Assembly: GCF_921293095.1 (NCBI RefSeq)
Contig: NC_060251.1
Span: 56,747,585-56,811,584, forward strand
Direction: 5' to 3'
From: Ischnura elegans
Taxonomy: Eukaryota > Arthropoda > Insecta > Odonata > Coenagrionidae
Length of the DNA: 64,000 bases
Shown here: positions 14,882 to 37,160 of the stretch, in pieces
Layout of the letters: each line of letters begins with the position of its first letter
How positions within the stretch are numbered: the stretch's first letter is position 1
Notes under the pieces: model-generated
Told to the model about the DNA's origin: nothing
The model's database searches: none
The model's input: the letters and a program-made list of their open reading frames with translations, nothing else
Made by a program: the position numbers and the translations under genes

Positions 14882-15468
14882 CAGGGGCAGATATGGGGGG
14901 GGATCATGGAAGTCATTACCCCCAAATTTTATCAAATTTTTAACGAAATTTTATAAGTATATACTTTATATTATATAATTGTTTTTGTATCCTTGCAAAT
15001 GCATGGCTACAAGTCCCAAAATGTGCAGAAGTTTGAGTTGTATTTAGCATAGAGCATAATATCTTTTAAAAAATTTTACAGTTGATGAAGCCCCCCTCTC
15101 CCAGGGGGTATTCCATACTCCTGTAGCGATTGCTATGCTGAATGAAATTCATATGACGTTGCTATAGAGGAGAATTTATATCTCTTCATGATATGGACTG
15201 ATGTGGTAGGCAAGATGGCTTGCTTATTTAATGGCGGCAAACTCTCTCGAATGTTGCTCCGGAACTTCCTCGAACATTCTGGAATTTCTCTGGAAAGAGA
15301 CAGAAAAATTCCAGCCAGCGCCTGGATTTGAACCGGGCCGTCCGATTGGGAGTCGAACACCTGTCCTCAGGTCCCACTCCATGCTGTGGCAGATAACGCA
15401 CCTCACTCCCCTGAGGCTGAGGTCATTCCCCCTCCTCCCCCACAAATTTGATGCTGAATCTGCCCCTG
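14882..15468. mobile_element. hAT-type MITE containing a SINE
   Basis: Ends CAGGGGCAGAT (14882) and ATCTGCCCCTG (to 15468). Flanks GCTCGAGG (14874-14881) and GTTTGAGG (15469-15476) agree at 6 of 8 positions. Interior is AT-rich with a G-run near the left end and a C-run at about 15090. A tRNA-derived SINE (15225-15425) lies inside it. Confidence 0.7.
15225..15425 (-). mobile_element. tRNA-derived SINE, family B
   Basis: On the minus strand the head runs GAGTGAGGTGCGTTATCTGC (A-box side) to GGTTCAAATCCAGGC (B box, about 15325-15340). It is followed by a body rich in GGAATTTTTCTG and TTCCAGAG repeats. The conceptual peptide with PGFEPGRPIGSRTPVLRS is the translation of this tRNA-like region, not a real protein. 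Confidence 0.7.
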
Positions 15469-26038: not shown

Positions 26039-26144
26039 TCATGATTCCTGATATGGTATGGTATTTGGAGGAGGCGACCGACAGTTGAGGCCCTTTGCCC
26101 CATGAGGGAATGGTAGGTAAGGAGGGGTGGAGAGAAACCCGGCG

Positions 26145-26183
26145 CACAGTGGGCTGAAATCGAAAAAAGCTGGCCAAAAATTA
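26145..26183 (+). repeat. Transib left terminal repeat, RSS-like
   Basis: Heptamer CACAGTG (26145-26151), a 22-bp spacer, then CCAAAAATT (26174-26182), which agrees with the V(D)J nonamer ACAAAAACC at 6 of 9 positions. With a 23-bp spacer the block reads CAAAAATTA. The 37 bp 26145-26181 are identical to the inverted right end. Confidence 0.85.
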
Positions 26184-27596
26184 TTTTTTTCACTTTTTAA
26201 TTCGGAAAAAACTATTATATTTTCAAATTATAGAATGATCAGTGGCCAAATTACTGAAATAATTTTTTTCATAACTAATTTTTTTAAAGCAGGAGACGTC
26301 TTTAAATTATATGAAAAATGATCTCAAAATTTTTTCCCCATTTTTTGAAAAAATCGACTGAAGTTTTTTGCTACTGTTGCGTTATGTTTTAAAATGTCTA
26401 AATTTAAATCATTGCATAATAAAAACTAACATTTTAGGAATCCGTTTTAGAGAAAGTTTTTATTATAGCGTTAATTTTTATTACTTTTATTTAAACAATT
26501 TAATTGTCCTATTTTTCACGTATTTTTAACATAATGTAGAGAAAAACTTGATGTTTTTCACTTAGCTTCACGAAATGTTTAGCACCACATTATAAAATAA
26601 AGTGTCAAATTTAGTTATCAATTGAAAAATCCTGCCCCAATTTGCCACCCCGCCTCTCCTATCAAGTTATGTGCGTGAATGTCCAACCGCTCGACGTGGT
26701 GGTTAAATGCGAACATTAGTTCAGACTTAGCTGTAGTCGAGGATAATTCGTTCAAAGTGAGACGAAATTACAATTATCTACACTTACATACACTGCATAC
26801 ATTTATCATACCATATTAGTCTAATTGTTCCAATTTTTCCAAGGGCACATTGCGATGCCTTTCATAAGACATGAAATAGACTTAACGATTACGCCGGCAA
26901 GTCAGATTCTTGTCTCGGGAAGCGGGCGGCTGCAAAGCATTATATATTAATTCTTATAAAACCCAATACTATGCACTATGCACTCGCATATTTTGCTCTC
27001 CACGCCATCTTAGGCCGTTTATAACTCCCATCAGCTCAAACAGTGGAAAGGGCACACGTGTGGCGGAGCGCCGCCGTGGCGGGTACTACCCTGCCGACCG
27101 CGTTAATCCCTATTGTACCCGAAACCACCAATGTGTTATGATTCCTATTTAGCGTTAAAGAAGTTCTGTACTCGGTTCATAACTGTCCCTTTATAGAAAT
27201 GCCGCTTATTGCTTTATTGCCTCGGTGTATGAAGGGGTTTTTGCACTGTTGAGGATCGCTTCCCTTCGACATCCGTGCAAACGTTTTCTACGAAGTAGCT
27301 CGCACGGGGTTTTCCACAAATGCTTCTTTCCAATTGGTTGAAAAATATTCCGTTTCAAGAAGTTAGTTTTTCTTCTTGAGTGCGAAAGGATCTCAGGGCT
27401 TGTGTTACGGAAGCGAAGAACCAGAGTTTATTTTTCCCTATATCGTGACATTTCAGCGTTGAGGCCGAACTATCACTAATGAAGGAGATCTCAGAACGAT
27501 AAAAAGGTATATTTTCCAAGTAAAATATCTCAGTGATCGTGTGTATTTTTCAGGGAATTATGCTCTAATTTCGTTTTCCTTGTCCCGTGATTTAGA

Positions 27597-27854
27597 TTGT
27601 TGATATTTTGGATGAGAGGAAACGGAGCGCATGAAAGTAACCCGCAAAGAATACATGATGTTATTGTTAATGGAAGTGAAAATTCGCTGTCGTCGAAACG
27701 TAAATTGGCCCTTCAATATCTTCATGATGAGTTAAACTTGGGGAAAGACGAGAAGACAAAGGAAATGTTGAACAAAGTCATGAATAAATACTTTTCAATA
27801 GGTATATCCAGAAATGGGAAGAATGCAAGAGAACCAGTGCCAGTTTTGAAGTAA
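27597..27854 (+). other. unassigned 85-codon ORF inside the Transib element
   Basis: Opens with MLIFWMRGNGAHESN and has a charged, helix-prone middle (KRKLALQYLHDELNLGKDEK). It lies upstream of the recognisable transposase tail, on the same strand, and could be residual N-terminal transposase or unrelated sequence. No catalytic motif seen. Confidence 0.35.
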
Positions 27855-27929
27855 AATTTCGATGTTGGTTAGGGAAGGATATAGGTACTGCTCCCTACAG
27901 ATATGAATAAATCTCTTCTTGAGACTCTT

Positions 27930-28614
27930 TGTTCAAGCATACTCAAGGCACGACTAATGATGGGAACACTGCCCGACGTTTTTTTCTGATCCTAAGCTAA
28001 TATCGGTATATTTACCATCAGAAACTCATATTATAAAGATTTTTATTTATTAATGCCAAAATTTGTTATGAATATTTAGAATTTTTTTGGAAGAAGGATT
28101 TTGGTGAGGACTTCTTTTCCTTCTCAAATACGGATTAACGAGGATCTTATCTCGAGGTTTGCCTCAATTTTAAAAGCTCTGACATCTGGACTTGAGATAG
28201 ATTACGCCAATTTCAGCGTATACTGCTCAGAAACTGCATCCCTTTTTGTGGATTTGTATCCGTGGTTATGTACGCCCGCGCCGCCCACGGTGCACAAATT
28301 GATGTTTCATGGAGCATAAATTGCCAAGGCAGCAGTGCCTCCAATTGGCCAACTTTCGGAGGAAGCTTTGGAGTCTCGCCACAAAGATATCAGAAGATTC
28401 CGAGCGCACCACACGCGAAAATGTTTCGCGCTTAACTGAAATGGGAGATATTTTCCGAAGGCTCCTAATTACTTCGGATCCTCTAATATCCAATAGTTAT
28501 GTATGTATAAATGATAAAAGAAATGTTTTAAAGGATATACGAAACTTACTTGTATTGGAGGAGCCAACTTCTGATGAGGACAGTGACAGCGGGGAATCCG
28601 ATGAAAACTGGTAG
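27930..28614 (+). pseudogene. Transib transposase C-terminal region (RAG1-core-like), broken
   Basis: Three frames must be combined. NDGNTARRFF (27956-27985) corresponds to NGNFARKL of RAG1. After about 110 bp of unmatched sequence, INEDLISRFASILKALTSG (from 28125) leads to LYPWL and TVHKLMFHGA (ends 28316), then an in-frame TAA at 28317-28319. Reading on, IGQLSEEALESRHKDIRRFR (28344-28403) aligns with the RAG1 GAWASEGNESGNK..FRRFR segment; the SEE at 28356-28364 sits where RAG1 has its catalytic Glu962. A +1 shift near 28420 restores SRLTEMGDIFRRLLITSDPL and an acidic tail ending ESDENW at 28611. The regions with the two catalytic Asp are not visible. Family role: RAG1-related DDE transposase acting on RSS-like ends. 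Confidence 0.88.
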
Positions 28615-29092
28615 CGGGCTGGTTTTATCCCTTATGTAAACTTATGTTTCATATATTTATGTTAATTTATTATGGTTCATAAATAATTTCATGTGGTATT
28701 GTAGTTCATGGTTTAAATTGTTTGCTAAATGATTTCTCTTGGGTGTTCTCGCATACAAAATGTAGACGCAAAGTTAATTGACTAAATCATTAATAATGTT
28801 TAAAAATATAATTTTATGCATTTACTATGAAATTTTTTTTTTAAATTTCTAAATTTAATCAAAAACTACTTATTTTTTTATTCCTAACTATTAATTTCAA
28901 TTAAATGTTCCCTCTCTATTGAAGCGATCCAAAAAGTCGATTTTTGGTTATTTTCCGTCTCTGCGAATTTGTTTTTAAAAAACTCCCCGGATCAATTTTT
29001 CGGCAAAATGTCTTTATATTCATGTTATATAGCCTAAAAAAGATTAGTAGGAAAAATTTCATCAAGCTAATTATAAAAATATGGAAGATATG

Positions 29093-29129
29093 ATTTTTGG
29101 CCAGCTTTTTTCGATTTCAGCCCACTGTG
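29093..29129 (-). repeat. Transib right terminal repeat, RSS-like
   Basis: Read on the minus strand: CACAGTG, a 22-bp spacer, then CCAAAAATC, which agrees with the V(D)J nonamer ACAAAAACC at 7 of 9 positions. Both ends have the same spacer length, as in described Transib elements and unlike the 12/23 pair of vertebrate RSSs. Confidence 0.87.
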
Positions 29130-29359
29130 CGGCGTCGGCATCAGCCTACTCCTAACGAAAGGCGCCAAGGGGACCACGGCTTAACGTCCCAGTAGACGGA
29201 CCGAGTGATGTGCTTGAAATGTCCTCCACACAACATTCAAGCAGGGATCGGGCAGTCTCTGAAAATTCTCAGCCATCGCCGGGATTTGAACCCGAGCCCA
29301 CGGTGAGGGTAGCCAACACTCTAGCCACTACACCAACCCGATCCCCCATCATGATTCCT

Positions 29360-36902: not shown

Positions 36903-37160
36903 TGGGGATTAGGTGGCTAGAGTGTTGACTCACCATTCCGTGTGGTCGGGTTCGCATCCTGACGGTAGCAGAGAATTATCAAAGACTGCCTGATCCTTGT
37001 TTGTTTGTTGCGTGAAGGACACTTCAAGCTCAACACTCCGTCCGTCGGTTGGGACGTTAAGTCGTGGTCCCCTTGGTGCCTTTCGTTAAGAGAGGGCTTA
37101 TGCCTCAAAAATTGTATCGGCATCGTTAAGTTTATCTCTACCCATCCGTCCCCATCTTTT
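36903..37160 (+). mobile_element. tRNA-derived SINE, family C, copy 2
   Basis: GGTGGCTAGAGTGTTGACTC (A box) and GGTCGGGTTCGCATCCTGAC (B box) are followed by the body GGGACGTTAAGTCGTGGTCC and CCTTGGTGCCTTTCG shared with the copy at 26050-29348. Inverted with respect to that copy. No clean target duplication found. Confidence 0.82.

Follow-up and report, generated by a model that had tools for sequence, protein, structure and literature searches.

Terminal signals of a Transib relic in Ischnura elegans and of its relatives in the same genome

Does a transposon whose ends open with CACAGTG, the heptamer of the V(D)J recombination signal sequence (RSS), hold a private change, or does it display a signal that its relatives share? 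The question is raised by a 64,000-nucleotide stretch of Ischnura elegans (hereafter the window; contig NC_060251.1, positions 56,747,585 to 56,811,584), in which a first-pass annotation had described a Transib element with such ends at 26145-29129 and had proposed it as a data point on the origin of V(D)J signals. It is the surrounding genome that gives the result its weight, the window copy being an ordinary non-autonomous relic. The boldest reading of the data, which we hold at somewhat less than even confidence, is that the Transib families of Ischnura, some with uninterrupted frames, nearly all use a strict CACAGTG heptamer, an equal spacer of 22 or 23 bp and a GG.CAAAA block, that these are read in two parts through a RAG1-type nonamer-binding domain (NBD), and that the bipartite 23-type signal is an old property of Transibs. 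If this is true, the novelty of V(D)J recombination would be its 12-type partner.

The window element and its insertion

The Transib insertion spans 2985 bp and has the following ends, each terminal inverted repeat (TIR) reading CACAGTGGGCTGAAATCGAAAAAAGCTGGCCAAAAAT and opening with CACAGTG, with a target-site duplication (TSD) on both sides:

26140..26144, no strand: left TSD CGGCG, identical to 29130-29134; the empty site is found elsewhere in the genome
26145..26181, plus strand: left TIR, 37 bp, 37/37 bases identical to the reverse complement of 29093-29129
26145..26151, plus strand: left heptamer CACAGTG, present at 40/40 left ends of copies retrieved by that end's sequence
26174..26182, plus strand: left A-block CCAAAAATT, 22 bp past the heptamer, 6/9 to the RSS nonamer
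29092..29100, minus strand: right A-block CCAAAAATC, 22 bp past the right heptamer, 7/9 to the RSS nonamer
29093..29129, minus strand: right TIR, 37 bp, identical to the left TIR, inverted
29123..29129, minus strand: right heptamer CACAGTG, present at 28/32 right ends and at 7/9 of those sampled via internal sequence
29130..29134, no strand: right TSD CGGCG, matching the left TSD and the empty site

The perfect repeats, the CGGCG duplication, the 22-bp spacer and the likeness of the right block to the RSS nonamer (ACAAAAACC) are all as first annotated. With four occurrences in the window where 3.71 are expected, CACAGTG alone is not rare, and it is the 37-bp inverted repeat and the TSD that carry the weight. 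Both spacers are equal (22/22), and the asymmetric 12/23 pairing was not encountered in this copy. The insertion itself is shown by the flanks, since these, when fused with a single CGGCG, match an empty site in a host repeat in 41 rows (40 scored of 1897 candidates; scored-candidate counts are lower bounds throughout), of which 40 extend across the junction, with 89-91% identity, and 29 take in the full 160 bases. The joined-flank junction pattern has no occurrence within the window itself. Together, the TIR, the TSD and the empty site rule out a chance heptamer.

The decayed coding tail that had been reported between the ends aligns, in broken frames, with a 676-amino-acid (aa) Transib transposase from Monomorium (P0004), of which residues 490-506, 503-611 and 606-675 are kept in three frames with one stop:

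27591..27851, plus strand: open stretch, possible N-terminal transposase remnant, with weak matches
27935..27985, plus strand: transposase remnant KHTQGTTNDGNTARRFF, aligning with P0004 residues 490-506
28092..28421, plus strand: transposase remnant, C-terminal catalytic region with one in-frame stop, P0004 residues 503-611, 53%
28371..28373, plus strand: GAG codon, its glutamate aligned with catalytic E436 of HzTransib (numbering as in PMC6941560)
28402..28608, plus strand: transposase C-terminal tail in a shifted frame, aligning with P0004 residues 606-675

HzTransib (6pqn, E=2.6e-10) is the only PDB sequence that positions 28080-28319 match at E<=1, and a sister copy (L051) matches HzTransib with E=2.7e-23. 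These alignments bear out the Transib match expected in 27.9-28.6 kb. In five pieces of the window curated Pfam models detected neither a Transib nor a RAG1 domain, and the same holds for the homologs P0001, P0004 and P0005; four further homologs gave RAG1 for P0023, at 0.005 and below the cut-off, and nothing for the other three. The stretch that holds both catalytic aspartates (WGFDG and MADGK in P0004) was not found in the window copy at E<=0.01, and of the D-D-E triad the copy retains E only. Upstream, 27591-27851 may be a weakly preserved N-terminal remnant: its best PDB match is to an unrelated protein (E=0.21), and of its matches to five Transib N-termini, that to P0014 scored above 298 of 300 shuffles, the other four being unremarkable. 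A sister copy, L034, aligns with the N-terminus of P0003/P0006 at E=0.003. An autonomous Transib was considered and rejected, as an intact transposase frame was found neither in the window copy nor in the majority consensus of 32 copies. With its frames broken and its D-D region not found, the window copy is, judged by its sequence, non-autonomous.

The copy thus combines a match to a RAG1-core-like DDE transposase, TIRs starting with CAC and a GC-rich 5-bp TSD. Ends that open with CAC would also suit another terminal-repeat superfamily, such as CACTA/EnSpm or hAT; the 5-bp CGNCG duplications and the PDB protein match to HzTransib alone, obtained without a dedicated search for other superfamilies, make that assignment extremely improbable. 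We are highly confident of the identity, anatomy and non-autonomous state of the window Transib.

A spaced terminal signal across Transib families

The window element belongs to a family of cut-and-paste transposons that we name A. Its left end was searched against the genome (1.72 Gb, 110 contigs), where the 40 places scored, out of 830 candidates, were all alike at >=97%, and 39 copies were read besides the window; other genome searches scored 150 of 1680 and 40 of 458 candidates. Right ends were located in 32 of the 40 copies (window included), the remaining eight having none within the stretch. While all 40 left heptamers were selected by the query, the right ends are a fair sample, and 28 of the 32 open with CACAGTG, the other four looking truncated or altered. 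Ten copies retrieved by internal sequence, a less biased sample, yielded a right end in nine and a left end in one; CACAGTG opens seven of these nine right ends, and the A-block reads TTAAAA in two of them. The right ends of other copies therefore exclude a private change of the window copy, and the heptamer is the consensus. The GC-rich duplication recurs as well, with matching TSDs in 24 of 32 copies and a consensus of CGNCG.

Internally, the 32 full copies fall into three groups about 9-12% apart, with 37-bp ends that are nearly unchanged, and the nearest to the window among the copies read is L034, 2.7% away. Their majority consensus has broken frames, which suggests that family A spread as a passenger. 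Genome-wide, a pattern search for family-A-like ends with <=3 mismatches gave 1995 places and none for the reversed control.

CACAGTGGTCCCAAATCGAAAAAAGCTGGCCAAAA forms the ends of another non-autonomous family, B, which was represented by 150 scored of 4059 candidates, many of them 97-99% identical; the TSDs of three copies read are CGGCG, CGTCG and CGACG. Transposase-bearing relatives were found by searching the genome with P0004, which gave 83 matches (66 scored of 5878 candidates). Eight of them are free of stops from residue <=108 to >=656, in frames of 585-714 aa measured stop to stop; in E2 (C5:134508827) a Met lies 682 codons before the frame end, and E4 has none near the frame start. 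Ends were sought at 22 transposase-bearing loci (E1-E6 and L088-L103) and located at 18, the exceptions being L088, L089, L097 and L101. CACAGTG stands at 16 of the 18, and CACATAG in two copies of family E1. Comparison of 14 independent copies from five families shows agreement as far as the CAC edge and divergence beyond it.

Across ten TIR families, CACAGTG is found in nine and CA[AT]AA in all ten, starting at offset 30 in five and at offset 31 in the other five, a coincidence of offsets that 20,000 shuffles never raised above three families. Column information, without small-sample correction, is 1.5-2 bits in the heptamer, GG and CAAAA and 0.3-1.0 in the left spacer. Both tests take one TIR per family; several ends were chosen with the expected motif in mind, and, with families A and B closely related, the ten do not amount to ten independent tests. 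The pattern CGNCG-CACAGTGG-N22/23-CAAAA occurs 4362 times in the genome against two for its reversed control. Allowing any CACNNNGG raises the count to 4738 (control 13), of which CACAGTG makes up 92%; the CACAATG form is found 90 times (control 0) and the form with a gap of 11/12 bases 28 times (control 0). These are computational counts from one genome. Twelve-type ends as a common partner are rejected by the comparison of 28 with 4362, and one of the short-gap matches, at C1:14346780, falls on an end that the 22-spacer pattern also matches.

The first 100 listed places have a 22-bp spacer in 89 cases and a 23-bp spacer in 11. Among them are 31 convergent pairs that share a TSD, 29 being 22/22 and two 23/23, a count drawn from a pattern restricted to spacers of 22-23. 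Left and right spacers in three pairs are identical at 10/23, 15/23 and 16/24 positions, with length unchanged. Given that spacers vary at fixed length, the heptamer, its distance to the A-block and the A-block itself look constrained while the spacer drifts.

It is nearly an even prospect, in our view, that Ischnura Transibs came to the exact heptamer from other CAC-type heptamers, as a lineage-specific state that is uninformative on the ancestor of V(D)J signals. A single genome was examined, family E1 has CACATAG, and ProtoRAG is described as having CACTATG and as tolerating changes at positions 4-6 (PMC8289069). On the other hand, the heptamer is common to nine of the ten TIR families, it opens 4362 of the 4738 CACNNNGG ends, and the transposases of E2, E4 and E6 are only 38-41% identical to one another, which is no higher than their identity to an ant Transib.

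Reading of the ends and comparison with known systems

How might such a signal be read? A transposase fragment was modelled from 79 of 120 listed homologs (660 found), and its predicted fold is like that of the RAG1 NBD; Transibs have been reported to possess an NBD (PMC9435367). We favour, by a slight margin over even chances, a two-part reading of the ends by catalytic core and NBD. The window Transib inserted into a repeat copy, duplicating CGGCG; a related Transib transposase would have acted on it in trans, and Transibs with uninterrupted transposase frames are possible helpers in the genome. The catalytic core would read CACAGTG at each end, and the RAG1-NBD-like N-terminal domain the CAAAA block lying 22-23 bp inward. 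Once it had paired both ends, the enzyme would cut at the CAC edge via a hairpin on the flank, as described for Hztransib cleavage (PMC6941560), and insert at CGNCG with a 5-bp stagger. As both ends have equal spacers (22/22 or 23/23), they would constitute a symmetric 23-RSS-like signal; no 12-type partner was seen.

There is roughly one chance in three, by contrast, that the CAAAA block is conserved for contacts with a dimerisation or DNA-binding domain, for DNA bending or through common descent, its likeness to the nonamer being partly coincidental. The conserved bases are GG.CAAAA, and the nine-base match to ACAAAAACC is only 4-7/9 in 11 ends; the spacers themselves are 86% alike between A and B, so that the families cannot count as independent; and Hztransib TIRs are said in PMC8289069 to have little or no nonamer likeness. 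This alternative fits less well with pairs involving E1, E2 or E6, whose spacers are 26-57% alike while the first six bases of the block are 67-100% alike, or with the left and right ends of one element, which can differ in spacer sequence and never, in the three pairs, in spacing. The modelled NBD-like fold and the NBD reported in Transibs also speak against it.

Hztransib of Helicoverpa zea (6pqn) is of the same superfamily, and its C-terminal catalytic region aligns with that of the window copy. It likewise has TIRs, a 5-bp TSD and one deduced protein (PMC1852546), whereas the window copy is a dead, internally deleted one; the Hztransib TSD is reported as GCTCG (PMC1852546), as against CGNCG in Ischnura. 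The 6pqn chain aligns from P0004 residue 179 on, leaving the NBD-like stretch of the Ischnura proteins without a counterpart. Drosophila and Anopheles Transibs are described as having RSS-like heptamers, some RSS-identical, and symmetric spacers of 20-22 bp followed by a nonamer-like block (PMC8355894). Some of them are reportedly 12/23 asymmetric (PMC8355894), in contrast to Ischnura, where 31 TSD-matched pairs are symmetric and the 11/12 gap is rare. The RSS and the Ischnura signal share an identical heptamer, a spacer of 22 or 23 and an A-rich block at the nonamer position; they differ in that the nonamer match is 4-7/9, no 12-type partner is seen and the Ischnura signal is a transposon end.

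RAGL/ProtoRAG elements resemble the Ischnura Transibs in CAC heptamer-like ends, a 5-bp TSD and a RAG1-like enzyme (PMC7204232). Unlike them, the related element E4 (3264 bp) holds a single 691-aa frame, its other frames of >=80 aa spanning 84-119 aa. A RAG2L gene was therefore rejected for E4, which has no second long frame and a longest minus-strand frame of 119 aa; the single transposase gene without RAG2 that marks Transibs is present in E4, not in the window copy.

Much of this is already in print: Transib heptamers identical to that of the RSS, spacers of 20-22 bp, CGNCG targets (given as the Transib target duplication in PMC4735498 and PMC5704228) and the Transib NBD; some Transib heptamers and nonamers are reported to be identical to those of the RSS (PMC8355894, PMC6941560). 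Within the reach of our searches, what is new is the comparison of ten families together with the counts and the symmetry, each a computational result from one genome. The open-access literature, with subscription papers and Repbase outside the search, yielded no paper pairing Transib with Ischnura, three that pair it with CACAGTG, and a single one that pairs it with Odonata, a survey of miniature inverted-repeat transposable elements whose smallest superfamily is Transib. The first-pass interpretation is supported, as the three outcomes that would have refuted it all failed to appear, and needs qualifying in two respects: a Transib heptamer identical to that of the RSS has precedent, and the window copy is an ordinary relic. 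The origin of the RSS is described as difficult to determine, partly for lack of nonamer likeness in Hztransib ends (PMC8289069), and the present families bear on its three parts, heptamer, spacer and nonamer, with the exact heptamer in nine of ten, the A-block at fixed distance in ten of ten and a spacer that drifts. Autonomous Transibs usually number one or few copies per genome (PMC4411706); Ischnura, in contrast, has 4362 exact ends (autonomous and non-autonomous unseparated) and eight transposase matches in uninterrupted frames, which makes it a good genome for testing two-part recognition by an NBD-bearing Transib.

Further Transib loci and the host repeat

Within the stretches read, no left end turned up for E1, E2, E3 or E6, and the 24 right-end matches of E6 (a 23-spacer family; <=2 mismatches) had no facing partner near the loci read. 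The E1 copies with CACATAG (L076, L093) nevertheless retain the spaced ACAAAA block. At C10:105131066 and C7:24642683 the transposase matches lie in several pieces, as if split by introns, with no end found within ~900 bp downstream.

Family B is a young non-autonomous burst, with a 159-aa open frame that includes the C-terminal catalytic-glutamate part and is 97-99% alike across many copies; examples are L072 (C6:59229000), L073 (C1:109383200) and L074 (C11:94463100). At L049 (C2:2738200-2742700) a family-B right end adjoins family-A sequence that continues up to the right end of that family, as though B had inserted itself into a copy of A, and this arrangement may help to order the ages of the two families.

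The host repeat around the window element is high-copy genome-wide, and its part at 29137-29328 recurs in the window at 36913-37104 (minus strand) with 81% identity. Over a 31-base part it is 90% like 15305-15334, a segment that overlaps the predicted tRNA-Gly at 15313-15390, and the repeat may be a tRNA-derived short interspersed element (SINE).
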